Below are positions 13,287 through 35,898 of a stretch of 36,981 nt of DNA, one piece after another (the stretch's first letter is position 1; every line of letters starts with the position of its first letter). The notes below the pieces were generated by a model, which saw nothing but the letters and a program-made list of their open reading frames with translations, had not been told where the DNA came from and made no database searches. The position numbers and the translations under genes are program-made. The stretch lies in NCBI GenBank assembly GCA_020438865.1, contig JAGQTU010000037.1, positions 1-36,981 of the forward strand, in the 5' to 3' direction. Source of the DNA: Mycobacterium sp. GTDB lineage: Bacteria > Actinomycetota > Actinomycetes > Mycobacteriales > Mycobacteriaceae.

Positions 13287-13288
13287 GG

Positions 13289-14458
13289 CTAGATCGGACT
13301 TTCGTTGCAGGGCTTGGCCGGCGGCCGCGTGGACAGGGTGAGCATGATCGGCTTGCCGCGGGAGTGGTCCGCACTCGAGCGGGGCTTGTCACGGTCATCG
13401 GCAAGCGCGGGCGCGCCGTAGCCTTCGACGCATTCGGGGTCGGGACCGTCGAGCGGCAGGCCGGTGAAGAACTTGGCCGCCATGCAGCCGCCGCGGCAGG
13501 CGTCGTAGTGCCCGCAACTACCGCAGGCACCGGCGGATTGCGGCTCGCGCAACTCGCGGAACAGGGGCGCGTCCTTCCAGACGGTCTGAAAGCCACCGCC
13601 GGACACCACGTTTCCGGCCAGGAACCGGTCGTGGATGGCGAACGGGCAGGCGTAGACGTCGCCGACGGGATCGATCAGGCACACCACCCGCCCTGCGCCG
13701 CACATGTTCAGCCCGGCCAAGGCGCCGGGTGCGCCCAGACCGGACAGGTGGAAGAAGGAGTCGCCGGTGAGTACCCGGTCCCCCTTGCCCACCAGCCAGT
13801 TGTACAGCTGTACTTGCTGTTCGGCGGTGGGATGCAACTCATCCCACACGTCAGCCCCGCGGCCGGAAGGGCGCAGCCGGGTGATGCGCAGCGTGGCACC
13901 GTACCGGTCGGCCAGCGCCTTGAAGTCGTCGAGTTGGTCGACGTTGTGGCGGGTGACCACGACCGAGATCTTGGCGTCTTCGAATCCGGCCGCGGCGAGG
14001 TTCTCCAGCGCGCGGACCGCCATCGCGAAGGAGCCGACACCCCGTACGGCATCGTTGACCTCCGCGGTGGCGCCGTCCAGCGAGATCTGGACGTCGACAT
14101 AGTCACTGGCCGCCAGCCGCGCCGCCACCTCCGGAGTGATGCGAACGCCGTTGGTGGAGAACTTGACCCCGACGTGGTGCGCGGTGGCGTAATCCACCAA
14201 CTCCCAGAAGTCGGGGCGCACCGTGGGTTCGCCGCCGCCGATGTTGACGTAGAACACCTGCATGCGTTCCAGCTCGTCGATGATCGCCTTGCACTGAGCC
14301 GTGGACAGCTCACGTGGGTCGCGCTTGCCCGACGAGGACAGGCAGTGCACACAGGCCAGGTTGCAGGCGTAGGTCAGTTCCCAGGTCAGGCAGATCGGCG
14401 CGTCGAGGCCGCGTTCGAACTGCTCGATCAGCCGGGGCACCGGCGCGGTGGCGGTCAA
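13289..14458 (-). CDS. mftC: Mycofactocin radical SAM maturase MftC
   Basis: Radical SAM/SPASM enzyme that decarboxylates the C-terminal Tyr of MftA and then cyclises it with the preceding Val. 389 residues. The SAM-cluster motif is CNLACVHC (CxxxCxxC) near residue 31. IGGGEPTVRPDF follows, and the SPASM cysteines lie in CGAGRVVCLIDPVGDVYACPF and CGSCGHYDACRGGC. The final ~35 residues after ECVEGYG are an unstructured Lys/Arg/Pro-rich tail. The start is TTG at 14456-14458, overlapping the mftB stop in a TTGA arrangement with AGGAGA upstream; the N-terminus MTATAPVPRLIEQFERG fits the family. Substrate delivery is by MftB, the adjacent gene. Confidence 0.96.
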   Translation of the reverse strand: MTATAPVPRLIEQFERGLDAPICLTWELTYACNLACVHCLSSSGKRDPRELSTAQCKAIIDELERMQVFYVNIGGGEPTVRPDFWELVDYATAHHVGVKFSTNGVRITPEVAARLAASDYVDVQISLDGATAEVNDAVRGVGSFAMAVRALENLAAAGFEDAKISVVVTRHNVDQLDDFKALADRYGATLRITRLRPSGRGADVWDELHPTAEQQVQLYNWLVGKGDRVLTGDSFFHLSGLGAPGALAGLNMCGAGRVVCLIDPVGDVYACPFAIHDRFLAGNVVSGGGFQTVWKDAPLFRELREPQSAGACGSCGHYDACRGGCMAAKFFTGLPLDGPDPECVEGYGAPALADDRDKPRSSADHSRGKPIMLTLSTRPPAKPCNESPI

Positions 14459-14754
14459 GGCATCTCCTGGTCAGAACGCCGGGGCACCAACATGTTCGAC
14501 TCCACCAGCACGCCCAGGGCGTGCAGGTAGGGACCCTCGGCATCGTTCTCCACCCCAGCAGCGGCCAACGCCGAGCCGACGTCGGGGTGCTCGTCGAGCG
14601 ACTCCACGACGGTCAGGATGGTGCGGTTCTTCAGGAAGGACAGCTTTCGCGTCCCGAAGTGGTACAGCAGCGCACCGAACGGTTCGGGCCGAACCGCCAC
14701 CTGTGGGTGCAGTTGCCAGCACCCGGACGGATCCACTGTCAGTAGACCCCGCAC
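14455..14754 (-). CDS. mftB: Mycofactocin precursor-binding chaperone MftB
   Basis: RiPP recognition element protein that binds the MftA leader and presents it to MftC. 99 residues from the GTG at 14754. The family core WQLHPQVAVRPEPFGALLYHFGTRKLSFLK is present (read as WQLHPQVAVRPEPFGA then LLYHFGTRKLSFLKN). From this GTG the gene overlaps the end of mftA by 16 bp. A second in-frame GTG at 14736, just after the mftA stop, would give 93 residues and has GCGGGG about 10 bases upstream; I cannot decide between them. Its stop overlaps the TTG start of mftC by four bases. Confidence 0.93.
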   Translation of the reverse strand: MRGLLTVDPSGCWQLHPQVAVRPEPFGALLYHFGTRKLSFLKNRTILTVVESLDEHPDVGSALAAAGVENDAEGPYLHALGVLVESNMLVPRRSDQEMP

Positions 14755-14840
14755 ATGCCGTCGATGGACACCTCTTCGACCAGTGACTCGGTGACCAACT
14801 CGGCGGCAGACTCGGCCTGGGTGCTCTGGCTGGGCTCCAT
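14739..14840 (-). CDS. mftA: Mycofactocin precursor peptide MftA
   Basis: 33-residue ribosomal precursor of the redox cofactor mycofactocin. It starts [16 protein letters not shown] and ends [10 protein letters not shown]. The C-terminal Val-Tyr is the part converted by MftC to the cyclised AHDP core, and the IDGMCGVY ending is the family's signature. ATG at 14838-14840 is preceded by GAAGGGAG at about -8, a strong ribosome-binding site. It is the first gene of mftABCD, and mftB begins inside or just after its last codons. It is too short for routine gene callers. Confidence 0.95.
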
Positions 14841-14878
14841 GCGGATGCTCCCTTCAATTTCGCGTTCGCCGGCGATGT

Positions 14879-14913
14879 GACACCGGAGCCGCCAGAATAT
14901 GGCATACGGTGTC
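14879..14913. promoter_or_regulatory. mftA-mftR divergent promoter with candidate MftR operator
   Basis: A perfect 7-bp inverted repeat, GACACCG (14879-14885) and CGGTGTC (14907-14913), brackets a minus-strand -10 hexamer TATTCT (14894-14899, TANNNT) suited to mftA. On the plus strand TACGGT (14905-14910) can serve as the -10 of mftR, with transcription starting near 14917. A TetR-type repressor dimer on the repeat would block both. The spacing of the arms (28 bp centre to centre) is wide for one TetR dimer, so two dimers or a different site are possible. Confidence 0.45.
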
Positions 14914-14926
14914 GAAAAGGGAAGGG

Positions 14927-15544
14927 ATGGGTTTCTTGGCGACTGGATCGGTGATCGCCGGCGCCGGCAGCTCGGCTCGGGTGGGCCGTCGGCGGTCGAC
15001 GACCTGCGACAAGATCGCCGATGTCGCGCTGGACCTGTTCGCGGCGAACGGGTTCGGCCAGGTTAGCGTCGACGATGTCGCGCTGGCGTGCGGAATCGCC
15101 CGGCGCACCCTGTTTCGGTACTACCCATCGAAGAACGCAATCCCGTGGGGCGATTTCGACGCCCACCTGAGCCACTTCGCGGCGGTACTGGACCGCACCG
15201 ATCCGTCGGTCTCGCTGCGCGACGCCCTGCGCACCGCACTGCTGGACTTCAACTCCGGTGACGATTTCCAGACCGACCGGCACCGTGCGCGGATGCGACT
15301 GATCCTGGGGACCGCCGAGCTTCAGGCCTACTCGATGACGATGTACGCGGGCTGGCGCGCGGTGGTCGCCGAGTTCATCGCCCGCCGAACCAGCGCGCAA
15401 CCGACCGACCTGGTGCCGCAGACGATCGCCTGGAGCATGCTCGGCGCCGCCCTGTCGGCGTACGAGTATTGGCTCGCCCATGACCTGCCACTGCCGGCGG
15501 CGATGGGCGAGGCGTTCGAAGCGATCGCCGACGGCCTGCGCTGA
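14927..15544 (+). CDS. mftR: Mycofactocin system TetR-family regulator MftR
   Basis: 205 residues from the ATG at 14927. The N-terminal HTH begins after [21 protein letters not shown], with recognition helix region [25 protein letters not shown]. The family-typical block [12 protein letters not shown] follows, then the ligand-binding domain with [22 protein letters not shown]. In M. smegmatis MftR represses the mft genes and is relieved by long-chain acyl-CoAs. An upstream GTG at 14909 is in frame, but it falls inside the probable -10 hexamer, so I prefer 14927, which has AGGGAAGGG directly before it. It diverges from mftA and meets the next gene tail to tail, stops one base apart. Confidence 0.92.
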
Positions 15545-16155: not shown

Positions 16156-17460
16156 CTAAAGCAGTCCGAGCGCCTCGAGGTCGGTGGCGTACTTGGTGAT
16201 GACCTCCGGGGTGACATGCGGGATGTCACCGCCGCACCCGATTCGGGCCGCGCGGACCGCGACCCGGAACCGCTCGGTGGAAGACGAGGCCCCGAGCGTG
16301 GGTTGCGGTGGCTGGAAGTCCACGGAACCCTTGCGCACCGCGAGCAACAACGGGAGCACGGTGTTCTGAGCCTGCCGCTCCGGCAGCGCCCGCAAACCGT
16401 CCTCGAAGCGCTGTACCCACTGTCCGAAGTCCTCGACCCGTTCGATCGGGTAGCCGGCCTCGATCAGCCAATCCACGTACTCGTCGATGCCGATACCGTC
16501 GTCGTGCGGGTTCATCACGTGATAGGTGACGAAACCCTCCTCGGCCTCGGCACCCAGGGCGCTGATCGCCTCGGCGACGAACCCGACCGGCAGCCCGTCG
16601 AAATGAGTTCGTTGTCGGTTACCCGCTGCGTCACGCTGGTAGAACGAGCCAGGGGCCACCCCCGTCAGCATCACGCTGTAGATCATCCGGGTCACCGTGT
16701 CGGACAGGTTGAGCTGCCCGGTGAACCGCGGGTCGGCCATGATCATCCCGGAGCGGAACACCGCCACCGGCAGCCCGCACAGATCGTGGGCCTCGCGCAG
16801 CAGCACCTCACCGGCCCACTTGCTGTTGCCGTAACCGTTGGCGTAGCCGCCCTGGTTGGCGCGGTGGGCACTGATGATCCGGATGTCGGCGTCCTCGGTG
16901 AACGCCCCGGGTTCCACCTGATTGCCTACGTCCGCCGTGGAGACGTAGCTGAAGGCCTTCAGCTTGGTGGTGATGGCCAGCCGGATCAACTCCGCGGTGC
17001 CCACCACGTTCGGGCCGAATAGGTCACAATACGGCAGCACACCATTGACCAGGGCGGCCGAATCCACAATCAGGTCAACCGATTCGGCCAACCCGGCCCA
17101 GCGCTGCTCGTCGAGGCCAAGATTGTGCCGGCCCTTGTCGCCGGCGATCACACGCAACCGGCCGTCGGCGGCCAGGGCCCGGAACTGGGCCAGCAGCGCG
17201 GCATCGCCGGTGTCGAAGGCCCGCTCCAAACGCTGTCGGGCGGCCTCGTCGGACTCCCCGCGCACCAGGCAGATCAGCGTGCCGCCGACCGGAGCCAGCC
17301 GCTCCAGCCATTCCAGCACCAGATAGCGGCCCAGGAACCCGGTCGCCCCGGTCAACAGGACCGTGGACACCTCACCGATGGCCGCCGGCAGGCTCGGCGC
17401 ACCCAACAGGGTCGGGGCGTCGATGAACTTCTCCAACCTCAGATCACCGGCGTGCACCTC
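16156..17460 (-). other. NRPS terminal thioester reductase (TD) domain
   Basis: Residues about 6146-6580. An extended SDR fold: [19 protein letters not shown] binds [14 protein letters not shown] carries the catalytic Ser/Thr, and [12 protein letters not shown] gives Tyr and Lys. The stretch [20 protein letters not shown] is shared with mycobacterial carboxylic acid reductases and Nrp/Mps2 reductases. It releases the carrier-bound peptide as an aldehyde (two electrons) or alcohol (four electrons); sequence does not tell which. Confidence 0.88.
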
Positions 17461-20400
17461 GCTCGGCGCTACCCCGTGGACCTCGGCGAAGCTCGGCCCG
17501 TGTGTGGGGCCGGACCCGCCGGCGCCGGCATCGATCTGGCGAGCCAGGCCGCACACCGTGGGCGTCTCGAAGACCGCCCGCACCCCCAACTCGACATCCA
17601 GGGCGGTGTTGACCGCAGCGATCACCCGCATCGCCGAAATCGAGTCGCCACCGATCTCGAAGAACGAATCGTCGGCACCCACCTGCGCCAAACCGAGCAC
17701 CTGCGCATAGATGCCGGCGATCGCGAGTTCGGTCGGGGTGCAGGGCGTTCGGTATTCGCCGCCCAGCCCCGCATACTCCGGTGCCGGGAGCGCGCGGGAA
17801 TCGAGCTTGCCGTTGACGGTCAGCGGCAAGGTGTCCATGACGACCACGGCCGCGGGCACCATGTAGGCCGGCAGGCGCTCGGCCAGCGCGGCGCGGGCCG
17901 CACCCGCCTCCACGGCGCCGGTGGCTGATTCGGTCACGTAGCCGACCAGACGCTTGTCGCCGGGGCGGTCCTCGCGGGCGATCACCGCAGCCTGCTCGAC
18001 ACCGTCGAGGCCGGCCAGCACCGTCTGGATCTCCCCGAGCTCGATGCGATACCCACGGATCTTGACCTGCTCATCGACGCGACCCAGATAGTCCAGCTGC
18101 CCGTCGGCACGCCAGCGCACCAGATCCCCGGTGCGATACATCCGCGAACCGGCCGGACCGAACGGGCACGGCACGAACCGCGACCCGGTCAACCCCGGTC
18201 GGTTCAGGTAACCCACACCCACACCCCCACCGGCGACGTACAGTTCGCCGACCACCCCGGCACGCACCGTCCGCAACCAGCCGTCGAGAACGAACAACGC
18301 GGCCGCGGTCACCGGCGCACCAATCGGCACCGCGTCCTGCTCCGACGTGAGCGGTGCACTGATCGCGACACACATCGTGGTCTCGGTCGGACCGAAGGCG
18401 TTGAGCATTGTTCGTCCATCGCCTGCCCATCGGTGCACCACCTCGTTGGGACAGGCCTCGCCGACCACCACCATGGTGGTCGACTCCAGCCCCGCGGGCG
18501 GCAGAACCGCTGCGGCAGAGGGTGTCTGGGTCAGGACGGTGACATGTTCGGCGGCCAGCAGTGCGTTGAAGCGGTTCGGTGCAGCCGCCACCTCGTCCGG
18601 CACGATCACCAGCCGGCCGCCGCGCAAGAGTGCCCCAAAGATCTCCCACACCGATACGTCGAATGCCAGGGAATGGCACAGCGGCCACACCCCCGAGTGT
18701 GGAAGCTCCGGCGGCAGGGATGCCAGCAGCTGGGTGACGTTGCCATGGCTGATCGCGACGCCCTTCGGTGTACCCGTGGTGCCCGAGGTGTAGATGAGGT
18801 ACGCGATGTCTTCGGCCACCGGGCCTGGGAATTCGATGCTGGGCTGGGGGTCGGCCGGGGCATCGACCTCGACAACCGCCATGGCCGATTCGGGCAACCG
18901 GGACCGTAGCCCGGCCGTGGTGACGGTCACGACCGGCGCGGAATCGGTCAGCATGAAATGCAACCGGGTGTCCGGGACCACCGGATCCATCGGTATATAG
19001 GTGGCCCCGGTCTGCAGTACGGCCATTATGGCAATGACCGCTTCTGCCGAACGCGGCAACAACAGTGCGACGTTGCGTCCCGGGCCCGCGCCGCGGGCAA
19101 CCAACAGCCGGGCTAATCTGTTCGACGCCCGGTCGAGTTCCCGATAGGACCACGTAGCAGTTCCGCAGGTGACCGCGATCTCGTCCGGAATTCGGGCCAC
19201 CTGCGCGGCGAACATCTCGGTGATCGTGGGCAGCGCGGGCGCCGGCCTGGTCAATGCGGTCCGATTCGCCCACTGATCGATTTGGTATTGCTCGCCCTCA
19301 GTCAGGGCCCCGATCCTGGCCAACGGCTGTTCGGCGTCGGTAGTCATCGCCTCCACCACCTGCTCGAAACGAGCTACCACCGTGGCGATTTCGGCGGGAC
19401 CGAACTTGTGGGTGTCGTACTCCACCCGCAGCCCCAGTTCCGCTCCCGGCAGGGCTGTCACCGATATCGGGTAGTGGTTGTACTCCCGGCTAGTGAGGTC
19501 GGTCACGGCAAGATCGTGCGCGGCCAGCAGTGCGGCGGTGTCGATGGGGTAGTTCTCGTAGACGAAGATCGTGTCGAACAGTTGGTCGTGGCCGGCGAGA
19601 TGGTGAATCTCGGTCAGGGCAAGGTGTTGATGCTCGAGGGTGTCATTGTGGTCGCGCCGGATTTGATCGACCAGATCGGCCGGCGTGCTGCCCGGGCGGG
19701 CTGTCGCCCGCACCGGCACCGTGTTGATCAGCAGGCCGACGATCGAATCCGCGCCCGCCAACTCGATCGGGCGCTCCGACACCGCAGTGCCGAAGGCCAC
19801 ATCGCGGTGCCCGGTCAGCATCATCAGCACCTGGGCCCAACCGGCCTGCAACACCGTGGACATCGTGGTGTGCTGGGCGCGAGCCAGATCTGCCAGCGCT
19901 TTCGTGGTCTCCGTCGAGAGCCGGAACGAGTCCACCGCCCGCGGACCGGCGGCGGCAGGCGCCGCCACCAGTGTCGGGGTGTCGAAACCCTCTAGCACCG
20001 AGCGCCACGCCGCGTGCGCGGCGTCGTGATCCTGCTCGGCCAGCCAGGTGACGAAGCTGCGATATGACGCGGCCGCGGGCAGCCGCTGCCGGAAGTAGCT
20101 GGCGAAGACCTCCTGCAGCAGGATCGGCAACGACCAGCCGTCGACCACGATGTGATGCAGCGTCAACACGAAGCGGTGTTCATTGGCCGCGGTGCGGATC
20201 AGCGCCCCGCGGAAGGTCGGCTGATTGATCAGATCACAGACCGCAGTGCGCTCGGCCGCGCAGAACTGGTCGATCCCCGCAGCGGTCTGCAGTTCCAGGT
20301 AGTGCCACTCGATGACCGGATCGGCGGCGATGACCTGGACGGGCTGGTCGAAGTCGGCGCAGAAGTGCGCGGCCAGGTTGGGGTGACGGCCGACGACGGC

Positions 20401-23400
20401 GCGGACCGCCTTCCGCAGCCGATGCCGATCCAGCGCCCCGGCGATGGTGATGTCCAACTGCACGGCGTAGACGTCCTCGGCACCTCCGGTTACCAGGGAA
20501 TGGAACAGCAGACCCTCTTGCAGGGGCGTCAGGGGTAGCACGTCGGCCACCGGGTGGCGCTGGGCCAGCTCGTCGATCTGGGGCTGAGTCAGCTTGGCGG
20601 GCAACAGATCCGACGGGGTCAACCCACCACCACCGTGCTGCACATGCGCGCAGAGCCCGCCGAGCGCCTCGAACCACAACCTGCTGAGCCGGTCGATCTG
20701 CCCGGCGTCCATCGCCGAGGGCGCCCAGGTCCAGGAGGCTTGCAACCGCGGCCCGGACTCGGTGTCCAGCGTGCCCGCATTGAGCGCCACGGTGTGCATC
20801 AACGGCATGGCGATCGCCGCCGCGGCCGCGCTGAGCGTCGCGGCGGCGGCATCGATACGCCACAACTCCTCGGAGAGCTCACCGACGCCGGTACCCAGCC
20901 GGCCCAGATAGTTGAAGCCGATGCCCGGCTCGGCGCCACCCAGGTCGACATCGGGGTTCACATAGCGCAGCAGCCCGTAGCTCACCGGGTCGGGCAGCGC
21001 GCGGAGCTGCTCCTTGGCGTCCTTGATCACCGCACCCAGGGCGGCGTCACCGGCGACGACCTGCTCCCAGGTGATCGCAGCCGGGGTCAGCACGATCGGG
21101 TACTTGGTGGTGAACCAGCCCACCGTGCGGGACAAGTCGACATCGTCGGCGGCCCACCGCTCCTCGCGGCCGTGGCCCTCGACGTCGATGCCGATCGGCG
21201 TGGGACCGGTACCCAGGAACTCCGTCCAGGCCAGCCCGAAGGCGACCAGCAGGATGTCCTGCACGCCGGCGTGAAACGCCCCGGGCACCTCGCCGAGCAC
21301 TTGGCGGGTGATCCCAGCGTCGAGTGACACCGACAGCTGGCCAGCGCTGGCATAGGTGTCGTGCGTGGGCTGAACGGTGGGCAACACAGTCGCCACCGTC
21401 GCCACCTGCTGCCAGGCCTCGGCCGACTCGAGCACTTCGGTGCTGCGCGCGTGCTCCTCGAGCACCTTCGACCATCGGGCGAACGAGGTTCCCCCGGCCG
21501 GCAATGCGATCGGCTGACCGTTGTGGTGCTGCGCCCAGGCGATGTTGAGGTCTTCCAACAGGATTCGCCATGACACCCCGTCGACGGCCAGGTGGTGGAT
21601 GATCAGCGCCAGCTGGTTGGTATCGGCCGCCCAGACTGCACGCAGCACGGCACCGGCGGCGGGATTCAGTTCGGAGCGGGCGGCCACCACCGCGTCATCG
21701 GACAACCCCTGGACGGTCGTCACGCAATCGACGGCCCGCACCGAACCCGGTTCAGGCACTTCGAGTGTCCATCCACCGGCGGCGTCCTCGGTCACCTGCA
21801 AGCGCAACGTGGCGTGCCGGTCCAGCAGCGCCTGCAGCACGGTCTGGACGTCGGCCTCCGTCGCTGCGGCCGGGGCCTGCAGCACCAGGGTCTGGTTGAA
21901 CTCGTCGATCGGGCCGTCGACGTCGTGCAGCCAGCGCATGATCGGGGTGGCCACCACTGGGCCGATGCCCTCGTCGACCACACGAGCCTCGCCACCGGAA
22001 ACCCTGACCACCGTCGCCAACCGCGCGACGGTCTGCTCGACGAAGATGTCGCGGGGCCGGCAGATCAGGCCGGCCACTCGGGCTCGGGCCACTACCCGCA
22101 TCGACAGGATGCTATCGCCGCCGAGGTCGAAGAACGAGTCGTCGACGCCCACCCGCTCGATGCCGAGCACCTCGGCGTAGATGTCGGCGAGCACCTGCTC
22201 GACCGCGGTGGCCGGCGCCCGGTACCGGTCGTGGTCCTGATATTCCGGTGCCGGTAGGGCGCGGGTGTCCAGCTTGCCGCTGACCGTCAGCGGGAGTGCG
22301 TCCATCACGACCACCGCCGCCGGAACCATGTAACCCGGTAACCGATCCGCGAGCGCGGCGCGAATCTTGACCGGATCGGCGATCCCGGTGATGTAGCCGA
22401 CGAGGCGCTTGTCGCCGGGGCGGTCTTCGCGGGCGATCACCGCGGCCTGCTCTACACCGTCCAATCCGGCGAGGACCGTTTGGATCTCACCGAGTTCGAT
22501 GCGATAGCCGCGGATCTTGACCTGCTCGTCGGCGCGGCCCAGGTACTCCAACTGTCCATCGGCACCCCAGGCGACGACGTCGCCGCTGCGATACATCCGG
22601 GATCCGCGCGCCCCGAACGGGCAGGGGACGAATCTGGTTGCCGTCAGCCCCGGTCGGTGCAGATAGCCCAGCCCGACGCCGGGGCCGGCCAGATACAGTT
22701 CACCGACCACGCCCGGCGGCAGCGGACGCAACCAGGGATCCAGCACGAGCAACGCCGCGCCGGCGATCGGGGAACCGATCGGTACCACGTCACTGCCGGG
22801 GACCAGCGGGCTGCTCATCGAGGCGCACACTGTGGCCTCGGTCGGGCCGTACGCGTCGATCATGGTCCTTCCCGGCGCGGCCCACCGCTGCACCAACTCG
22901 GGCGGGCAGGCCTCGCCGGCGACCACCAGGGTCATCGACTCGAGGTGCTCGGCCGGCAGCATCGCCACCGCCGTGGGGGTCTGCGTCAGGACGCTGACCC
23001 GCTCGGTGAGCAACAAGTCGTGGAATTCCTGGGGTGATGCGGCCACCTCCTCGGGGACCACCACGAGCCGTCGACCTGACAGCAAGGCCCCCCAGATCTC
23101 CCATACGGAGAAGTCAAAGGCTGGCGAATGGCATTGCGTCCAAACCGGACCCGGCGGCAGGCCGGCGTCCAACGCGCCCACCAACCAGGTCACGTTACGG
23201 TGGGCGATGGCTACCCCCTTGGGCACACCGGTGGTGCCCGAGGTGTAGATCAGGTACGCGATCTCATCGGCAGCGGGCGCCGGCAGCGGTGCACCGGGCG
23301 CGAACTCCAGGGCGGGATCGTCGACATCGATGACGAGCAGACCGTTATCGTCGAGCCGTGTCCGCAGGGCGGCGGCGGTGATGACCGCGATCGGCGTGGC

Positions 23401-26400
23401 ATCGGCGAGCACGAGCTCCATCCGCGCCGCTGAGTGTGCGGGATCGATCGGCACGTAGGCCGCCCCGGTTTTGAGCACGGCGAGCATCGCCACGACCGCG
23501 TCGGCGCATCGCGGGAGCAACAACGCCACCCGCTGCCCCGGACCCGCGCCGTGCAGTGCCAACATCTGCGCCAACCGATTGGCGGCAGCGTCGAGTTCGC
23601 GATAGCTCAACGAGCGGCCCGCGTACCTGACCGCAATGGCGTGCGGTGCACGGGCCACCTGTGCGGCGAACACGTCCGGGATCGAGGCGGACTCGAGCAC
23701 CGGCTGGGTCAGCGCCGCGGTGTTGGCCCACCGGTCCAGGCGTGCCCGGCACGCGCCGTTGAGCACATCGATCGCCGAAAGCCGTCGCATCGGTTCGGCG
23801 ATCATCGCCTCGAGGACGTGCCGGAAGGATTCGATCAGCGTCGCCACGTCATGGGTGTCGAACACTTCGGTGTCGAATTCGACCCGCAGCCCCAATGCCT
23901 CTCCGGGGATGGCTGTCACCGACAGCGGGTAGTGGTTGTACTCCCGGCTGGTGAAGGCGGTGACGGTCAGCCCGCTGGTGCCCAGCAGCGCTGCGTTGTC
24001 CACCGGATAGTTCTCGTAGACGAACAAGGTGTCGAACAGTTGCTCGTGGCCGACGAGGTGATGAATCTCGTTCAGCGCCAGGTGTTCATGCTCGAGGGTG
24101 TCATTGTGCTCACGCTGGACTTGCTCCAGCAGATCGGCCACGGTGTCCGAGGCGGTGACCCGGGCTCGCACCGGCACGGTGTTGATCAGCAGGCCCACCA
24201 TCAGGTCCGCACCGGCCACATCGGCGGGCCGCCCCGACACCGCGGTACCGAAGGCCACATCGCTGCGTCCGGTCAGCATCATCAACACCTGGGCCCAGCC
24301 GGCTTGCAGCACGGTGCTGACCGTTGTCTGCCGGCTGCGGGCCAGTTCGGCGAGCGCGTCGGTGATCGCCGCGGACACCTGGAACGATTCGACACCGCGC
24401 GGACCCAGCGCCAGGCGGCCCGGTGGACCGACGAGAGTCGGCGTGTCGAAACCGTCGAGCACCGTGCGCCACGCCGCCTCCGCCGCACCCCGATCCTGAT
24501 CGGCCAGCCAGGTGACGAACCGGCGATAGGGCGCAGGTTCGGGTAACCGGTGGCCGTAGTAGGCCGCGAAGATCTCCTGCAACACGATCGGCAGCGACCA
24601 GCCGTCGAGCACGATGTGGTGATTGGTCAGGACGAACCGATGCCGATCGGGTGCGGTGCGGACGAGTGCCGCACGGAATGTCGGCTCGCTGGTGGGATCA
24701 CCGACCGCGGCACGTTCGGCAGCGCAGAACTTGTCGAGCTGTTCCTCGGTATCCAGTTCCAGGTAGTGCCAGGCGATCACCGGTTCGGCCGCAATGACCT
24801 GCACCGGCTGATCGAAGTCCTCACAGAACCGCGCCGCCAGGTTCGGATGACGTTTGATGACGTTGCCCACCGCATCCCGCAGCCGGTGCGGGTCGAGTTC
24901 ACCGGCCAAGGCGATGTCCAACTGCACGGCGTAGATGTTGTCGGCGCCCCGGGTGAACGTGGAGTGGAACAACAGTCCCTGCTGAACCGGGGTCAGCGGC
25001 AACACGTCGGCGATTTCGAATTGCCGTTTCAGCGAGTCGATCTGGTCCTGATTCAGCTGGGTCGGCAGGATGTCCGACGGGGTGAGACCGCCTCCGCCGT
25101 TGCGTACATGGGTGCAGATCCCGCCCAGCGCCTCGAACCAGAGCCGACTGAGCCTGTCGACCTGCTCGTCATCGAGCGCGGCGGTGGCCCAGGTCCACGA
25201 CGCTTGCAGCGTCGGGCCGGACTCGGTGTCCAGGGTGCCGGCGTTGAGTCCCACGGTGTGCATCAACGGCATGTCGATCGCCGCGGCGGCGCCGAGGAGT
25301 GACTGTGCGTCGGCGTCCATGCGCCACAGGTCGTCCGACAGCTCGCCGGTGCCCAATCGGCCCAGGTAGTTGAAGCCGATTGCGGGGTCGGCGGCATCGA
25401 GGGCGACATCGGGGTTCAGGTACCGCAGCAGACCGTAGGTCACGCCGTCGGGCAGGGCGCGCAACTGCTCCTTGGCGTCCTTGATCACCGCGCCCAGCGC
25501 GGCCTCCCCGGCGACCACCTGCTCCCAGGAGATCTCGCCCAGGCTCAATGCCACCGGATACTTCGCGGTGAACCAGCCCACCGTGCGCGACAGATCGACG
25601 TCGTCGGCCACCAATTCCTCGGCCCGACCATGGCCCTCGACGTCGATGCCGATCGGGGCGTCGGTGCCCAGGAACTCCTTGAACGCCAACCCGAAAGCGA
25701 TCAACAGGATGTCCTGCACACCCGCGTGGAACGCGGCGGGCACCTCACCGAGCAGGCGGCGCGTGGTGCCGGTGTCCAGCGAAACCGAGAGTTGGCCCGC
25801 GTTGGCATAGGTGTCGCGGCAGGGCTCAACGTGCGGCAACGCCGCGGGTGCCGCGGTGACACTCCGCCAGGACTCGACCTGCCGTACCGCGGCGTCGGCG
25901 TGGGCATACTTCGCCAATACCGTCGACCAGCCGGCGAACGATGTTCCGCCGGTCGGCAGCACGATCGGCTGGCCGCTGTGATGCTGCGCCCAAGCGATGT
26001 TGATGTCCTCCAACAGGATTCGCCACGAGACCCCGTCCACCGCCAGGTGGTGGATGATCAGCGCCAGTTGGCCGGTGCCTTCCGCCCACACCGCACGGAG
26101 CACGACCCCGGCGGCCGGGTCCAGCCGTGAGCGTGCCGCAATCACCGCGGCCTCGGTCAAGACGTCGACGGCGGCCAGGCAATCGCGCGCACGCACCGAT
26201 CCCGGTTCGGGGACGCTCAGCGCCCAGTCACCGGTGCCGTCATCGTCAACCTGCAGGCGCAGCGTGCCGTGCCGGTCCAGCACCGCCTGCAGCACGGTCT
26301 CGACGTCGGCTTGGTCGACCCCGGCCGGGGCCTGCAGCACCACGGTCTGGTTGAACTGATCGACCGGGCCGTCGACCTCATACAGCCACCTGACGATCGG

Positions 26401-29400
26401 GGTGGCCACCACCGCGCCGAGTCCCTCGTCGACGACGCCGACCGCCCCGCCCGCGAACGCCGCCACCTGGGCCAACCGGGCGACGCTCTGCTCGACGAAC
26501 ACATCCCGCGGGCGCACGATCAACCCCGCGGCCCGCGCCCGCGCCACCACCTGCATCGAGGAGATCGAATCCCCGCCGAGGTCGAAGAACGAGTCATCGA
26601 CACCGACGCGCTCGACTCCGAGGACCTGGGCGTAGATCCCGGCCAGGATCTCCTCGACCGCATCGGCCGGCGGCCGGTACTGATCGGCGTCCTGATACTC
26701 CGGAGCCGGCAGCGCGCGGGTGTCCAGCTTCCCGTTGACCGTCAACGGCAGCGCATCCAGTGACACCACCGCGGCCGGAATCATGTAGGCGGGCAACCGT
26801 TCCGCCAACTGGGTGCGGATCTTGGCGGTGTCGCCACTACCCGTCACGTACCCAACCAGCCGCTTATCACCCGGGCGGTCCTCACGGGCGATCACCGCCG
26901 CGGTCTCCACCCCCTCCAAACCGGCCAACGCCGCCTGAATCTCCCCCAACTCGATGCGATACCCGCGGATCTTGACCTGCTCATCAGCACGGCCCACATA
27001 CTCCAGCTCGCCCTCGGCGTTCCAGCGCACCAAATCCCCGGTCCGATACATCCGCGAACCGGGCGCCCCGAACGGACACGCCACAAACCGGGTCGCACTC
27101 AGATCCGCCCGACCCAGATAGCCGGACGCCAACCCGCCACCGGCCACATAGAGCTCACCGACCACCCCCACCGGCGCCGGACGCAACCAGCCATCAAGCA
27201 CGAAGAACCCCAGATGGGCCAGCGGCACCCCGATCGGAGACACCGCCCGCTCCACATCCGCACCGGTGATCTCACGGAACGAGGCATGCACCGTGGTCTC
27301 GGTGATCCCGTACATGTTGACCATCCGCGGCCGGCCCGGATGGCGATGCATCCACGCCGACAGGCGCGCCGGCTCCAAGGCCTCCCCACCGAAGACCACC
27401 GTCTGCAACCCCAGCTGCTCGCCCACCTCCGGATACAGCGCATCGGCGGTCTGCAAGGCATCAAAGGCCGACGGGGTCTGCGAGAGCATCCCGACCCGCT
27501 CACTGACCAGCAGCGCGTGCAACTCCTCCGGGGAACGCACCACCGAATCGGCCACCATCACCAGCCGCCCGCCATAGAGCAGCGGACCCCAGATCTCCCA
27601 CACCGAATAGTCGAACGCCAACGAATGACACTGCGTCCACGCCGTGGCCAACCCCACCTCGGCGTCTAGGGTCGCCAACAACTGCGTGACGTTGCGATGC
27701 GGGATCGCCACCCCCTTCGGCGTGCCCGTCGTGCCCGAGGTGTAGATGATGTAGGCGATATCGTCGGGCGCCGGGAACACCAACCCCGACACCGCAGCCG
27801 CCGCGATCGCCGGATCGTGAATGTCGATGAGTGGCAGGTCCGACCCGTCGATGCGGACGCGTAGTTCGGCGTCGGTGATGGCGGCGATCGGCGCGGCGTC
27901 GATGAGCGTGAACGAGATCCGGGCGTCCGGGTGCGCGGGGTCGAGCGCCAGATAGCTCGCGCCGGTCTTCAACACGGCGAGGATCGCCATGACGGCGTGG
28001 GCCGAACGCGGCAACAACAGCGCCACGGTGCGGCCCGGGCCCGCACCGCGGTCAACGAGATGGTGCGCCAACCGATTCGACGCCTCATCGAGTTCGCGGT
28101 ACGTCCACGCCGACCCGCCGCCGCTGATCGCCACCGCCTCCGGCGCGCGGGCGACCTGGGCGGCGAACAATTCCGGAATCGACGCCAACTCCGCCGCCGG
28201 CCCGCTCAGCACCGCACGGTTACCCCACACATCGAGCTGGGCATGCTCGGACTCGTCGAGCACATCGACAAACGACAGGTGCTGCTCGGGATCGGCGGCC
28301 ATCACCCGCAGCACCCGCGCCAGACGGGTGATGAGGGTGTCGATGGTGTCGGGGTCGAACACGTCGGTGCGGAACTCGGCCGTGCCGCTGATCCCGGCGG
28401 GCCGCCCATCGTCGGTGAACCGTTCGGCCAGAGACACGGTGAGATCCATGCGGGCGGTGTGGGTGTCGGCGGACAGCGGGGTGACGTGCAGATCACCCAG
28501 CGCCGCTTCGGCAGCGGGTTGGTTGTTCTGCCAGGCCAGCGCGACCTGCACCAGGGGGTGATGGGTCAGCGAGCGGGCGGGGTTGAGCCGCTCGACGAGC
28601 ACCTCGAAGGGCACGTCCTGATGCTCGAAGGCGGCCAGGCTTCGCTCACGGACTCGGGCGAGCACCTCGGCCACCGTGGGATCTCCACCCAGATCCACCC
28701 GCAACACCAGTGTGTTGACGAAGAACCCGACCAGATCCTCCAAGGCGGGATCGTTGCGGCCGGCGGTCGGGAAGCCCACCGCCACATCGGAAGTCGCGCC
28801 GATCTTGGCCAGCAGCACCGCCAGGGCGGCCTGCAGCACCATGAAACTGGTGGTGCCACTCCGCTCAGCCAGCGTGTGCACGGCCTTCTGTAGTTCGGCC
28901 GGCCAGTCCACCGCGATCGTGGCGCCGCGGTGGTCGGCCACCACCGGATACGGTCGGTCGGTGGGCAACACCACCCGCTCGGGCATCCCGGCCAGGGCCT
29001 GCTCCCAGTACGCCAGCTGGGCACCGATCGCGCTGTCGGGATCCTCGAGATCCCCGAATTGAGTGCGCTGCCACAACGTGTAATCGATGTACTGCACCGG
29101 CAACGGCGCCCAGTCGGGGGCGTGCCCGGCGCACCGGGCGGCATAGGCCGCACCCAGATCCGCCACCAGCGGGGTCATCGACCCGCCGTCACCGGCGATG
29201 TGGTGCACCACCCCCACCAGGACGTGCTCGTCGACGCCGACGCGGAACAGGGTTGCCCGCACCGGAATCTCACTCGACAGGTCGAACTGATGCCGGGCAG
29301 CCTCGGCGGCGGCGGCATGCAACCGCCCGACGGGCCAGCCAGTGGCATCCACCACTTCCCAGCCCACCTCGGCCAGCTCGGCCGGTACCACGATCTGCTG

Positions 29401-32400
29401 CGGAACCCCTTCTGGTGCAATGAAGATCGTGCGCAGGCTCTCGTGACGGCCCACCACATCGACCAGGGCCGACCTCAATGCGCCCATGTCGAGCTGACCG
29501 GGCAGTTGCAGGCCGATCGCCATGTTGTACACCGGCGAGGGGCCCTGCAACTGGTCGATGAACCACAACCGGGACTGCGCGAACGACAGCGGAACCACCG
29601 CGGGACGCTGGTGCACGGTCAGCGGCGCGAACACTCGTCGCTCAGCGTGGGTTCCGATCCACTCGGCCAAACCCGCCACCGTCGGCGCCTCGAAGAGAGC
29701 ACGCACCCCGACCGCGACGTCCAGGGCGGTACCGGCCGCGGCCACCACCCGCATCGCCGACAACGAGTCGCCGCCCAGATCGAAGAACGAGTCGTCGACC
29801 CCGACTCGCGGCAGCCCCAGCACGTCGGCGTAGATCCCGGCCAGGGTCTCCTCGGTGGCCGTGGACGGCGCGCGGTAGGTGGTGCCCCGGTACTCCGGGG
29901 CGGGCAGGGACCGCACGTCGAGCTTGCCGTTTACCGTCAACGGCAAGGCCTCCAGCACCAGGACCGCGGCCGGCACCATGTAGGCCGGCAGCCGCCCGGC
30001 CAGCGCAGCCCGTACGACCGCCGGATCTACTGCACCACAATGGGTTTCGGTGACATAACCGACCAGGCGCTTGTCGCCGGGGCGGTCCTCACGGGCGATC
30101 ACCGCCGCGGTGCCCACCCCGTCCACACCGGCCAGGGCGGTCTGAATCTCACCCAGTTCGATCCGATGCCCGCGGACCTTGACCTGCTCGTCGGCGCGGC
30201 CAACATACCGCAACTGCCCGTCGGCACCCCAGGCCACCAGATCCCCGGTGCGATACATCCGCGCACCCGGCGCTCCGAATGGGCAGGCCACAAACCGTGA
30301 CCCGGTCAACCCCGGCCGGTTCAAATATCCGACACCCACGCCACGACCGGCCACGTACAGTTCGCCGACCACCCCGGCCGGCACCGGGCACAACCACCCA
30401 TCCAAGACGAACAATGCCGCACCGGTCACCGGCCCACCGATGGCCGGTGTGCTCGAACCTGGCACCAGCGGTGCGCTCATCGATGCGTAGACCGTGGTCT
30501 CGGTGGGGCCGTAGGCATTGATCATCAGCCGTCCCGGCGCCCACCGATCCACCACATCGGCCGGGCACGCCTCACCACCGATCAACAGCGCCACGGACTC
30601 CAGGCCGTCGGTGGGCAGCGCCGCCAGGGCCGAGGCCGTCTGGGTCAGCACCGTGACGCCTTCGGCGACCAGCAGGTCGTGGAAGTCGTCCGGGGAGGCG
30701 GCCACCCCTTCGGGCACCACCAGCAGCCGGTCCCCATGCAGCAGCGCGGCGAAGATCTCCCACACCGAGAAGTCGAAACCGTAGGAGTGCGCCTGGGTCC
30801 ACACCTGCGCGCCCGCCAAGCCCGGCGGCCGCGACGGCATCAGGTGGGTCAGGTTGTGGTGGGTGATCGCCACCCCCTTGGGCCTTCCGGTAGTGCCCGA
30901 CGTGTAGATCAGATACGCCATGTCATCCGGACATGGCGCCGGCAGCGCGGAGCCAGGTTGCGCGGCGATGTCGGGATCGTCCAGGTCGATCACCGGCACA
31001 CCCGAATTCGCCACCCGTTCAACCAGTTCCGCGTGGGTGAGCACCGCGGTCGGCGCGGCATCGGTGAGCATGAATGCGATCCGGGCGTCGGGATGGGCGG
31101 GGTCCATCGGCACATAGGCTGCACCGGACTTCAATACGGCCAGGATCGCCACGATCGCCCGGGCGGAGCGGGGCAACAGCAGCGCCACGCACTGCCCCGG
31201 GCCGGCGCCTCGCTCCACCAGACGGCGCGCCAGGCGGTTGGCGGCCTCGTCGAGTTCGGCATAGCTCAGGGAGCGGCCCTCGAAGCGCACCGCCACCGCG
31301 TCGGGGAGCCGAGCCACCTGCGCGGCAAAGACCTCCGGCACCGACACCCCGGCCGGCTCGGAGGCGGCCAGCGCAGCGGTGTTGCCCCACTGCTCGAGCC
31401 GGGCGTGTTCGGCCTCGTCGACGATGTCGATGGCCGACAGGTGCCGGTGTGGGTCGGCGATCATCGCCTGCAGCACGCGCCGCAACCGTTCGATGAGGCT
31501 TTCGACGGTGGCCGGATCGAACACGTCGGTGCGGAACTCAACCGCCACCCCGATCCCGTCGGGCTCACCGGCTTCGGTGAACCGTTCGGCCATCGACACG
31601 CTCAGGTCCATCCGCGCGGTGTGGGTGTCGGTCGGTAGCGGGGTGACCTCGATATCACCGAGTCGCGCCGCGGCGCTGGGGTCGTAGTTCTGCCAGGCCA
31701 ACACCACCTGCACCAACGGATGATGCGTCAGGGAGCGGGCCGGGTTGAGCCGCTCGACCAAAAGTTCAAAGGACACGTCCTGATGCTCGTAGGCGGCCAG
31801 GCTGCGCTGCCGGACCTGTGCCAGAACGTCGGCCACGGTGGGGTCCCCACCCAGATCCACCCGCAATACCAGCGTGTTGACGAAGAAGCCGATCAGATCG
31901 TCCAGAGCGGGGTCTGCCCGCCCGGCGATCGGGAAGCCCACCGCCACATCGGAAGTCGCCCCGATCTTGCCCAGCAGCACCGCCAGGGCGGCCTGCACCA
32001 CCATGAAGCTGGTCGCGCCGAAGCCCGCGGCCGCGGCGCGAACCTCGTGGTGCAGGTCGGCCGGCCAGTCCGCCACCACGGTGGCGCCGCGGTGATCGGC
32101 CACCGGTGGATAGGGCCGATCGGTGGGCAGGATCAGCCGCTCCGGCATCCCCGCGAGGGCCTGCTCCCAGTAGCCGAGCTGGCGGGCGATCGCACTGTCC
32201 GCGTCGTCGAGGTCGTCGAACTGGGCGCGCTGCCACAACGCGTAATCGATGTACTGCACTGGCAATTCGGTCCAGGCCGGGGCTTGGCCGGCGCGGCGGG
32301 CGGCATACGCCACGCCCAGATCACGCACCAACGGGGCAATCGAGCCCCCGTCACCGGCAATGTGGTGCATGACCCCGACCAACAGGTGTTCGTATTCACC

Positions 32401-35400
32401 CAGGCGGTAAAGCGTTGCCCGCAAGGGAATCTCGCTGGCCAGGTCGAACCGGTATGCCGCCGCCGCCTCGACGGCCTCGGTCACCTTCTCCGCCGGCCAG
32501 CCGACGGCGTCGACGACCTCCCAGCCCACCTCGGCCCGCTCCGGGGCGAGCACCACCTGCTGCGGCACCCCCTCGGGAGCGACGAACACCGTGCGCAGAC
32601 TTTCGTGGCGGCCCACCACATCCACCAGCGCCGCCCCCAACGCCGCGACATTCAACTCCCCACGCAGGCGCAGTCTGACCGCCATGTTGTACACCGGCGA
32701 CGGACCCTGCAACTGGTCGATGAACCACAACCGGGACTGCGCGAACGACAGCGGAACCACCGCCGGGCGAGGGCCGGCCACTAACGGCTCACGACCGCCC
32801 TCGGCCGCACCGACCCGCGGGGCCAACAGCGTCACGGTCGGGGCCTCGAAGACCGCGCGCACCGAAAGCTCACCGCCCACAGCGGCGTTGATCTCGGCGA
32901 TCACCCGCATCGCCGACAGCGAGTCACCACCCAGATCGAAGAACGAATCGTCCACCCCGACCCGCTCCACCCCCAGCACATCGGCGTAGATGCCGGCCAG
33001 GATCTCCTCGACCGCGGAGCCCGGAGCGCGGTACCGATCCAGATCCCTGAACTCCGGTGCCGGCAGCGCGCGCTTGTCAAGCTTGCCGTTCACCGTCAAC
33101 GGCAGCGCAGCCATGACCACGATCGCCGCCGGCACCATGTAGGCCGGCAACCGCTCGGCTAGCGCGGCGCGGGCCGCACCCGCCTCCACGCTGCCGGTCA
33201 CGTAGCCGACCAGTCGCTTGTCGCCCGGTCGGTCCTCGCGGGCGATCACCGCCGCGCTGGCCACCCCGTCCACCGCGGCCAACGCGGCCTGGATCTCACC
33301 GAGTTCGATGCGGTAGCCGCGGATCTTGACCTGCTCATCGACGCGGCCCACATACTCCAGCTGCCCGTCGGCGCCCCAGGCCACCAGATCCCCGGTGCGG
33401 TACATCCGCGAACCGGGCACCCCGAATGGACACGCCACGAATCGGGAGGCACTCAGCTCGGAGCGCCGCCAATAGCCCACTCCGACTGCACGACCCGCGA
33501 CGTACAACTCGCCGACCACCCCGGCAGGCACCGGACGCAGCCAGCCGTCCAGCACGAACAGGGCGGCCCCCGGCACCGGCGAGCCGATCGGTACGACACC
33601 CGCTCCGGCCGTGAGCGGCGCGCTCATCGCGACCCACATGGTGGTCTCGGTCGGGCCGTACTGATTGATCATCACCCGGCCCGGCGCCCACCGCTGCACC
33701 ACGCCGGCCGGACACGCCTCGCCACCGACCAGCAACGCCATCGGCCCCAAGCCGTCCGGTGAGAGTTCGGCCACGGCCGAAGGGGTCTGGCTGAGCACAC
33801 CGACCTTCTCGGTGACCAGCAGATCATGCAGATCATCGGCCGAGTGGACCAGCGAGTCGGGCACCACCACCAGTGCGCCGCCGTTGAGCAGCGCACCGAA
33901 GATCTCCCAGCCGGAGATGTCGAAGCTGTACGAATGCCACTGCGACCACACCTGTCCCGGGCCGACGGGAACCGCAGCGGGCAGCGACGCCATCAGCTGC
34001 GTGACGTTGTGGTGGGCAATCGCCACCCCCTTCGGCACGCCCGTGGTTCCCGAGGTGTAGGTGATGTAGGCGATGTCGTCCGGGGCCGCCGCCGGCAGCG
34101 CGGTAGCCGGATACGCCGCGATTCCCGGATCGTCGGCCTCGAATACTGCGCAGCCCGATTCGGCCAGTCGCGCACGGAGTTCGGGCGTGGTGATCACGCC
34201 GATCGGGGTGGCGTCGGCAAGCATGAAGTCCAGCCGCGCCGCGGGCATCACCGGATCGATCGGCAAATACGCCGCACCGCTCTTGAGCACCGCCAGCATC
34301 GCCACGATCGCCTGGGCCGAGCGCGGCAACAACAGCGCCACACACCGCCCCGGTCCCGCGCCGCGGGCGACCAGCAGCTGCGCCAACCGATTCGACGCCT
34401 CGTCCAACTCGCGGTAGCTCCACGAACGGCCCTCGAACGTCACCGCCAACGCCTCCGGCGCCCGGCACACCTGCGTGGCGAAGACCTCGGGGATGGACAC
34501 CGGCGCAGGCGCGGCACCGTCCAGGACCGCCGCGTTGGACCAGCCGTCGAGCCGGGCACGCTCATCGTCGACGAGCAGGTCCAGCGATGACAGCGGTCGA
34601 TCCGGATCTCCCGCCATCGCCGCGACGATGCGCTGCAGCCGCGCTCCAAGACCGGCGGCACCGATGCTCGCGTACGGCTCACCCAATCCCGCTGTGGAAA
34701 GGGCCAATTCGTCACCCGAGCCGAGGAAGAACAATCCGAAGTGGCCCACCGGGCCGTGATTGGTGTACGACGCCGTGGCCTCGGCGCCGCCGAAGTCCAA
34801 CGTCAGCCGCAGGGGCATGAAGTTGATGGCGACCCGATTGGCCTCCAGCCGCGGGCCCCCGGAAGTGCGGCTCTCCAGTGTGCGCACCGGAAAACGCTGA
34901 TGGTGCAGCAATTCCCGGATGCGGGTGTCCACATCGCGGCAGAACTCGGCCACGGTCATCGCCGGCGGGGTCTTCACCACCAGCGGAACCACCCCGGTGA
35001 GCATCCCGGGCAGCGTCTTCGACTCCGGGGTGACCCGCCTGCTGACCGGAAAGTCCAGCGCCACCTCATCGGCGGTCGCGCTGTACCCGCGCACCAGCAG
35101 GCCACACGCCGCGGTGAGCACCGAGTACCGCCGGATGCGCAACGTCTTCGAGAGGTCCTTGGCCTGGCCCACGACGGACCGGTCCAACGCGACCGGCACC
35201 GACGGGGTGGAGCCGTCGTCGCCGCCGGCGAACTCCGCGGACCGGTAATGCGCTGCCCCGTCGGGGGGAAGGTGGGCGCTCCAGTAGTCCCGGTCGTCGA
35301 CATAGTCGGACGACGCCTCGTAGGCCGCCTCGCCGCCGACCAGATCGCTCAATGAGCCGAAGTAGGCAGGCGGGACGGGTTCGCCTGCGACCAGCGCCGA

Positions 35401-35898
35401 ATAGATTGCTGCGATACGGCGGCTGACCAGAACCATGCCCAGCCCGTCCATCGCGATGTGGTGGCAGCACGCGAACAAATAAAACTCATCGGGCAAAGTT
35501 TGAAACAGCGCAAATTTGAAAAGCGGGCCGGACAGCGACATCGGCGTGCGGCGTATCGACGACGAGATCTCACCGACCTCGTGCGCCGGATCCTCCGATC
35601 CCGTCAGGTCGTAGAAATCGAGCTCGATGTCCGGATAGTCGATCGCCCGTTGATAGACCTGCCCGGCGGCCACGAAGAACGCGGCTCTGCCGGGTTCGGC
35701 CTCGCGTGCCACCTGCCGAATCGCCTCGTGGAGTAGACCCCGATCCACCCGACCGGCGATCCGCCCCAACAGGCCGAGCTGCCACTCCGTACCGGCCAGA
35801 CCCGCTTCCTGCGCCAGCCAGATATCCAGCTGACCTCGAGTCAGCGGCAGCCCCCCGCCAAGATCCACCCGACCCCCAACCCCAAACTGATTACGCAT
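16156..35898 (-). CDS. Five-module non-ribosomal peptide synthetase with starter C and terminal thioester reductase
   Basis: One uninterrupted frame of 6580 residues: C-A-T, C-A-T, C-A-T-E, C-A-T-E, C-A-T-TD. Approximate residues of markers are as follows. C motifs HHxxxDG at 146, 1178, 2231, 3760 and 5247. A3-type TSGTTG at 614, 1665, 2719, 4218 and 5702. Carrier GGDS at 992, 2044, 3110, 4595 and 6085. E motifs HHLAVDG at 3283 and 4767. Reductase NADP motif [10 protein letters not shown] at 6183 and YGNSK at 6355. A starter C domain at the N-terminus implies acylation with a fatty acyl group, and the reductase implies release as aldehyde or primary alcohol. C4 and C5, which follow the E domains, are of the LTPxQxGLLFHS/HHIVxDGWS kind that accepts D-residues, so a colinear product is acyl-L-L-D-D-L with a reduced C-terminus. 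No MbtH, phosphopantetheinyl transferase or acyl-AMP ligase lies in the window. ATG at 35898; weak ribosome site. Confidence 0.95.
17460..20560 (-). other. NRPS module 5: DCL-type C5, A5, T5
   Basis: Residues about 5113-6146. C5 starts [16 protein letters not shown] with HHIVVDGW. The A5 pocket reads DVWTVVAMCK, which I cannot assign; it is a small to medium hydrophobic pocket. The carrier differs from the others ([12 protein letters not shown] rather than FFDLGGDS), which may reflect its role in handing the chain to the reductase instead of another C domain. Confidence 0.75.
20560..25020 (-). other. NRPS module 4: DCL-type C4, A4 (aromatic-like), T4, E
   Basis: Residues about 3626-5113. C4 starts [16 protein letters not shown] and has HHIVLDGW, matching a D-donor-accepting domain after an epimerase. 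The A4 pocket reads DFWTVAAVCK, seven or eight positions like the Phe/Tyr codes (DAWTIAAVCK, DASTVAAVCK), so an aromatic residue is likely. T4 has GGDSILSM and is followed by an intact epimerase ([12 protein letters not shown]). Confidence 0.8.
25020..29640 (-). other. NRPS module 3: LCL-type C3, A3 (Thr-like), T3, E
   Basis: Residues about 2086-3626. C3 is a near copy of C2. The A3 pocket reads DYWSVGMVHK, close to the Thr signature DFWNIGMVHK, and the core reads [12 protein letters not shown] as Thr domains do; Thr is the best guess. T3 has GGDSISSMQ, followed by an epimerase with [12 protein letters not shown], so the residue should be D (D-allo-Thr if Thr). Confidence 0.8.
29519..29600. 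repeat. Near-identical direct repeat, copy in C3 (partner at 32681-32762)
   Basis: About 80 bases at 29519-29600 and 32681-32762 differ at only a couple of positions. Both encode the start of the C2/C3 condensation domains ([20 protein letters not shown] region). They lie 3162 bp apart, one module length. Confidence 0.85.
29640..32800 (-). other. NRPS module 2: LCL-type C2, A2, T2
   Basis: Residues about 1033-2086. C2 begins [17 protein letters not shown] and carries HHIAGDG, typical of domains joining two L-residues. The A2 pocket reads DFWTLGAVYK by alignment to PheA; I have no confident residue call. T2 has GGDSLSAM. No epimerase, so residue 2 should be L. Confidence 0.8.
32681..32762. 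repeat. Near-identical direct repeat, copy in C2 (partner at 29519-29600)
   Basis: Second copy of the condensation-domain repeat. Together the pair is a substrate for recombination that would delete or duplicate exactly one module. Confidence 0.85.
32800..35898 (-). other. NRPS module 1: starter C, A1, T1
   Basis: Residues 1-1033. The C domain has an intact HHIAMDG and later DFPVSRR and [13 protein letters not shown], and no module precedes it, which fits an acyl-accepting starter domain. Reading the A1 pocket against GrsA PheA (positions 235, 236, 239, 278, 299, 301, 322, 330, 331, 517) I get DIWSLGQMWK. I know no characterised match. The Trp before the final Lys is seen in small-side-chain pockets such as Gly or Cys. 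Carrier Ser in GGDSLSAM. Confidence 0.8.

Follow-up and report, generated by a model that had tools for sequence, protein, structure and literature searches.

What does a five-module non-ribosomal peptide synthetase (NRPS), encoded in one reading frame on a contig of Mycobacterium sp. (assembly GCA_020438865.1), make, and does its product stand apart from the classical mycobacterial lipopeptides? Our analysis indicates that the enzyme is probably a lipopentapeptide synthetase in its own right, with a second half in common with the glycopeptidolipid (GPL) line of its host, and its predicted product, N-acyl-X1-L-Leu-D-allo-Thr-D-Phe-L-phenylalaninol, gives a mycobacterial NRPS a concrete candidate lipopeptide structure.

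Gene architecture and conservation

The window, meaning the whole stretch of DNA analysed (36,981 nucleotides), is one entire contig of a 4.96 Mb genome in 366 contigs. A frame at 16156-35898 on the reverse strand opens with ATG, encodes 6580 amino acids and has no internal stops; the contig ends 1083 bp upstream of its start codon. Pfam searches returned repeated Condensation, AMP-binding and PP-binding domains with NAD_binding_4 at the C-terminal end and, together with a motif scan, gave the order C-A-T, C-A-T, C-A-T-E, C-A-T-E, C-A-T-TD. HHxxxDG occurs seven times (five condensation (C) and two epimerisation (E) domains), motifs A3, A7, A8 and A10 five times each (one set per adenylation (A) domain), and GGDS five times, once per carrier (T) domain, while the reductase domain (TD) carries GxxGxxG-type and YxxxK motifs. 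The scan pattern for the GPTE-type A motif matched four of five A domains, the fifth reading DAYGPTE in the translation, and that for the C-domain N terminus matched four of five C domains. The single five-module frame with intact catalytic motifs described in the first-pass annotation was therefore borne out by frame, Pfam and motif evidence. The features are as follows.

16156..35898 (-): five-module NRPS gene, 6580 aa (ORF, Pfam, domain cut)
34534..35856 (-): C1, starter-type condensation (N-acylation), GPL-type subclade (C/E tree)
33049..34497 (-): A1, code DIWSLGQMWK (pocket code)
32815..33027 (-): T1 (motif scan)
31381..32763 (-): C2, LCL type (C/E tree)
29890..31344 (-): A2, code DFWTLGAVYK, Leu predicted (code of GL8P-type module 6, Leu, 2/2 genomes)
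29659..29871 (-): T2 (motif scan)
28219..29601 (-): C3, LCL type (C/E tree)
26695..28182 (-): A3, code DYWSVGMVHK, Thr predicted (89% to own GPL Mps1 A2, core 97%)
26464..26673 (-): T3 (100% identity over 70 aa to own GPL Mps1 T2)
25078..26451 (-): E1, epimerase, D-allo-Thr predicted (E clade of C/E tree)
23722..25008 (-): C4, DCL type (C/E tree)
22240..23685 (-): A4, code DFWTVAAVCK, Phe predicted (code of own GPL Mps1 A1, Phe; 79% full length, core 83%)
22009..22218 (-): T4 (motif scan)
20614..21996 (-): E2, epimerase, D-Phe predicted (E clade of C/E tree)
19264..20544 (-): C5, DCL type (C/E tree)
17773..19227 (-): A5, code DVWTVVAMCK, Phe predicted (code of GL8P-type module 3, Phe, 2/2 genomes; three L5P-like positions labelled Phe)
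17536..17748 (-): T5 (89% to own Mps2 T2)
16159..17481 (-): TD, thioester reductase, release as alcohol predicted, aldehyde possible (86-87% to own Mps2 reductase; best PDB match 4dqv)
16156..28305 (-): segment from the end of C3 onward, collinear with own GPL mps1 module 2 (A domain on) and mps2 modules 3-4 (DNA alignment)

The closest relative among the genomes searched is a metagenome-assembled genome listed under the same genus (G283, hereafter the sister). When the 5′ 3.4 kb of the gene was scanned as DNA against the genus (393 of 396 genomes scored, the own genome included, one candidate per genome), the sister alone exceeded 75% identity among the matches listed. The sister's recovered pieces match parts of the gene at 90-96% DNA identity and keep the codes of A1-A3 unchanged (A4 and A5 fall outside the recovered pieces), and dN/dS between the two is 0.18 over 4303 codons. 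Because 6580 domain-complete codons are matched by such ortholog pieces under this dN/dS, the frame is real and not a chance one. Both flanks are retained in the sister, save for about 617 bp of the upstream MFS gene that are absent from the window.

Domain classes, substrate codes and the predicted peptide

Domains were cut with HMMs built from the NRPS's own domains. From the loci gathered, 459 distinct C and E domains of more than 380 aa went into a FastTree phylogeny (the C/E tree). C1 fell in a clade of 112 (support 0.966) holding 111 of the 113 first-position C domains, which places the gene with mycobacterial starter-C/reductase lipopeptide synthetases. C2 and C3 lay in a clade of 61 with all 60 C domains that follow a T domain, C4 and C5 fell in one of 141 that held all 139 following an E domain plus the remaining two first-position ones, and E1 and E2 grouped with all 145 E domains. 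Because of these placements, the starter type proposed for the first C domain and the L-L-D-D-L pattern proposed for the peptide both hold, the latter with E domains in modules 3 and 4. Within the starter clade, C1 belongs to a subclade of 79 (support 0.991). Of the 110 domains inspected, this subclade contains all 47 that bear a GPL label, here given by domain pattern, but not one of the 10 with an L5P-like label.

A-domain codes were read as nine aligned positions plus the A10 lysine and calibrated on a second, 6+2-module locus found in two genomes (G104 and G108), where 612 and 607 kb separate it from the GPL locus. Its epimerases stand at modules 1, 3, 6 and 8, and its codes are DFWSVGMVHK, DVWSVAAVYK, DVWTVVAMCK and DFWTVGVMWK for modules 1-4 and DAESLAAICK, DFWTLGAVYK, DFWSVGMVHK and DFWSVGMVHK for modules 5-8. 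In the accessible part of PMC11978893, the M. abscessus GL8P locus is described as one hexamodular and one bimodular synthetase, lying 600 kbp away from the GPL locus and with predicted epimerases at 1, 3, 6 and 8, and its product as Thr-Ala-Phe-Ile-Tyr(OMe)-Leu-Thr-Thr (TAFIYLTT) by NMR and MS. From this match in modules, epimerases and distance, we infer that the second locus of G104 and G108 is the GL8P locus. Software had predicted Thr at GL8P position 6 and NMR gave Leu (same source); the module-6 code DFWTLGAVYK (L185, L187) therefore reads Leu.

Against this calibration, A2 carries the GL8P-type Leu code (module 6) and A5 the GL8P-type Phe code (module 3), each in both genomes, and A3 and A4 carry the Thr and Phe codes of the host's own GPL synthetase. 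Pocket cores of 107-120 residues, compared with domains of C66 (the contig of that synthetase), L056 and L185-L188, were closest to GPL Thr for A3 (97%), GPL Phe for A4 (83%), GL8P-type Leu for A2 (73%, a narrow lead over an Ala module at 71%) and GL8P-type Phe for A5 (69%, followed by an L5P-like Phe module at 68%). These identities point to Leu2, Thr3, Phe4 and Phe5, in support of the Thr at position 3 and the aromatic residue at position 4, here Phe, expected at first pass. Among the 294 A domains compared, the A1 code was seen outside the window only in the sister; it agrees with a Gly code, DILQLGMIWK (as given in the accessible part of PMC12283262), at six of ten places, too weak a likeness to assign Gly to residue 1. 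A literature search on A-domain code strings returned no match.

The A5 code has five other copies in that set, two of which are duplicates of the window entered under different locus ids, and it occupies three Phe-labelled positions of L5P-like loci. Six codes recur across GPL, L5P-like and GL8P-type systems. The residue agrees in five and conflicts in DVWTVAAMCK, one residue from the A5 code, which takes a GPL Ala-type position in L059 yet also L5P-like Phe positions; GPL and L5P-like residue labels rest on module pattern, those of L5P-like loci, taken from the L5P sequence, also on the DAG code at module 2, and the products there are predicted. Of 396 genomes, 161 (the own one included) have a C domain related to C1 at E<=1e-150, and the GPL/GL8P code-to-residue table (less firm for L5P-like loci) may be used on mycobacterial synthetases with such a starter domain.

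Assembled from these parts, the starter C domain would place a long-chain acyl group on residue 1, modules 1 and 2 would add two L residues (X1 and L-Leu), modules 3 and 4 would add and then epimerise Thr and Phe, and module 5 would add L-Phe before the reductase lets the chain go, most likely as the amino alcohol. The product would be a surface-type lipopeptide.

Kinship with the host GPL synthetase and chain release

The GPL-type synthetase of the own genome (G000, contig C66) consists of an Mps1-like protein, C-A(DFWTVAAVCK)-T-E-C-A(DYWSVGMVHK)-T-E-C, and an Mps2-like protein, A(DVWCVAAIYK)-T-E-C-A(DVWFVGGIYK)-T-TD. Just upstream of its mps1 lies an MbtH gene, the sole MbtH match in this genome (90.9% complete), and nearby are SfLAP-type, ABC transporter, acyltransferase, glycosyltransferase, methyltransferase and sugar genes. 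GPL itself is D-Phe-D-alloThr-D-Ala-L-alaninol, and an mbtH-like gene was reported upstream of the NRPS genes in all GPL clusters known at that time (PMC3537567, accessible part).

Modules 3-5 of the window NRPS are collinear with modules 2-4 of this synthetase (78.7% DNA identity over 12,290 bp, against L046:6549-18770), and protein residues 2532-6582 form one alignment block to it, which starts at the A domain of its module 2 and runs through module 4. Domain by domain, A3 is 89% and T3 100% identical to own GPL module 2, A4 is 79% identical to the own GPL Phe domain and TD is 86-87% identical to the GPL-type (Mps2) reductase; C2 and C3 are 71-73% identical to an own-genome fragment on contig C41 and to one another. 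The C-terminal part of the predicted product would thus have the stereochemical frame of GPL, D-allo-Thr, a D-residue and an L-amino alcohol. We infer that evolution ran from GPL to the window gene. The gene hints that modules were replaced, genes fused and pockets altered among related synthetases within one genome.

The reductase domain has the M. tuberculosis Nrp reductase as its best PDB match (4dqv, E 2.9e-185) and scores 302.7 bits against TIGR01746, above that model's cut-off of 213.35, which marks it as a C-terminal thioester reductase; this supports the reductive release proposed earlier. The mycobacterial Nrp reductase has reportedly been treated as a [2+2]-electron reductase in one study, going by its title. 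Given this collinearity with GPL and the closeness of TD to the GPL-type reductase, an amino alcohol would be the most likely released form, so that the alcohol end of the earlier aldehyde-or-alcohol proposal gains and the aldehyde is disfavoured.

Release as a reactive peptide aldehyde is accordingly an improbable outcome in our assessment: TD has matches among carboxylic acid reductases as well (5mso and others), which are aldehyde makers, but its closest relative found, the sister aside, is the own Mps2 reductase, whose GPL-type product ends in alaninol, and its closest solved structure is that of mycobacterial Nrp. The identity of the last residue turns on A5, which by full length falls among the alaninol modules (clade of 17, support 0.93) and therefore leaves room for Ala at residue 5. 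We think it unlikely that the same enzyme makes acyl-X1-Leu-D-aThr-D-Phe-L-alaninol, although A5, T5 and TD all lie in the Mps2 terminal-module lineage by full length, because the A5 code differs from that of own Mps2 A2 at five of ten places and both the identical codes elsewhere and the best core matches belong to Phe modules.

That the gene is silent or decaying, a GPL paralogue out of use, is the least probable of these alternatives; the lack of accessory genes found beside it and the broken adjoining MFS gene would fit, but its signature motifs are intact and dN/dS against the sister is low. With the phenylalaninol product still preferred, a bolder extension is possible but doubtful: a natural chimera of the GPL line, in which two LCL modules stand in for GPL module 1, a single gene joins them to the three GPL modules that follow, and two A-domain pockets take Phe for Ala. 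GPL sugars sit on the D-alloThr and L-amino-alcohol sites. Since both sites would be retained, the host's GPL acylation, MbtH and glycosylation machinery might also serve the chimera's product, giving a second, N-terminally extended glycopeptidolipid.

Comparison with known systems and the surrounding locus

We compared module order and codes across ORFs of at least four domains (L001-L043 and L144-L153 left out) plus the GL8P-type loci, and no other synthetase in this set equals the window gene, the sister's pieces aside; nor did the literature searched yield a lipopeptide of the predicted structure. The accessible part of PMC11978893 reports that a second GPL-like locus is found in some mycobacteria and that its NRPS make-up and predicted products differ from species to species; the window gene fits this pattern in kind. 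With such synthetases and one product already published (same source), the gene therefore belongs to a known family and is not a new type of system; "new", as first claimed, would apply to its module order and codes within the set compared. The claim that the product lies outside the classical ones stands against GPL, L5P and GL8P alike, yet the enzyme is not unrelated to them, given its collinearity with GPL.

The GPL synthetase (Mps1 plus Mps2) shares with the window gene the starter C subclade, reductase release, the order D-alloThr, D-residue, L-amino alcohol and the three collinear modules. It differs in having four modules in two genes (Phe-Thr-Ala-Ala(ol), E in 1-3), against five in one gene with E in 3 and 4 and different codes; D-Phe1 stands against the L-L pair X1-Leu, and Ala plus alaninol against predicted Phe at both positions. 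The GPL locus has MbtH directly upstream and glycosylation genes, none of which were found beside the window NRPS. GL8P (MAB_4690c/MAB_4691c of M. abscessus) is likewise a second GPL-like synthetase beside a classical one and has Phe and Leu codes in common with the window, but it has eight modules (6+2, E at 1, 3, 6 and 8) in two genes, thioesterase release, and MbtH, MmpL and glycosyltransferases at its locus (PMC11978893, accessible part); C1 of the GL8P-type loci in G104 and G108 is only 51% and 50% identical to window C1. The L5P of M. avium subsp. paratuberculosis is also an acylated pentapeptide, and L5P-like loci share one Phe code with the window; it is, however, D-Phe-MeVal-Ile-Phe-Ala with a methyl ester end (PMC8103206, accessible part). 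An L5P synthetase has E in module 1 only and an N-methyltransferase domain in module 2 (one L5P-like locus tested), whereas the window has no insertion between A2 and T2, and L5P-like C1 domains lie outside the GPL-type subclade. Nrp (Rv0101) of M. tuberculosis, a two-module synthetase of an isonitrile lipopeptide, resembles the window NRPS in its reductase domain.

Among the 23 non-NRPS frames scanned in the window, none matched the acyl ligase, PKS, MbtH, MmpL or glycosyltransferase families, nor did any of the 7 of 25 upstream ORFs scanned in the sister. The upstream MFS gene is broken at window 36671/36672, where the sister has its additional sequence (L180:8312-8928), by biology or assembly. 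Directly downstream of the NRPS, a mycofactocin locus (12108-15541) comprises mftD, a radical SAM/SPASM (mftC-like) gene, an MftR-type regulator and a peptide frame ending in IDGMCGVY that we take to be mftA-like. An ExaC aldehyde dehydrogenase gene follows mftD, where mftE would presumably be expected. This side is retained in the sister up to the sister's contig end at window 13668.

Further synthetases were seen in the course of the comparison. Own-genome NRPS fragments lie at contig ends (L044, L048 and L049, on G000:C75, C41 and C297); C1 of the C75 fragment is 79-80% identical to window C1, and the fragments suggest at least one further synthetase of the GPL-related family. L5P-like loci (L115, L122, L124, L126, L127, L131, L132, L136, L142 and L056/L060), most seen in part, pair a Phe-type code with an E domain, followed by a DAG-code module and, where the sequence reaches that far, an Ile code. 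Their hosts include M. colombiense, 'M. vulneris' and other strains, although the accessible part of PMC8103206 calls L5P unique to M. avium subsp. paratuberculosis. The scan that gave genome names used an alignment of nine C1 domains, covered genomes other than the own one and kept the best 80 of 343 matches.

One nine-module system in two genes (L054-L055, G012:C1, about 456-489 kb) carries N-methyltransferases in its second and fifth modules, the same code in modules 1, 3, 4 and 9, a Thr code at 6 and an Ala code at 8. This is close to fortuitin, which we take to be Val-MeLeu-Val-Val-MeLeu-Thr-Thr-Ala-Pro methyl ester. The likeness breaks down at the last residue and at the reductase end, neither of which suits a fortuitin synthetase. 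Two GPL-type Mps2-like proteins carry Phe-type codes, L157 (G185:C2) in its terminal module (DAWTAVAMCK) and L059 (G055) in its third-residue module (DVWTVAAMCK), and may make GPLs with Phe replacing Ala. Finally, a 13,398-aa frame at G357:C1:4739 kb starts with a C1 61% identical to the window's, and a 16,070-aa frame at G006:C1:176-222 kb gives weaker C matches of 25-27%.
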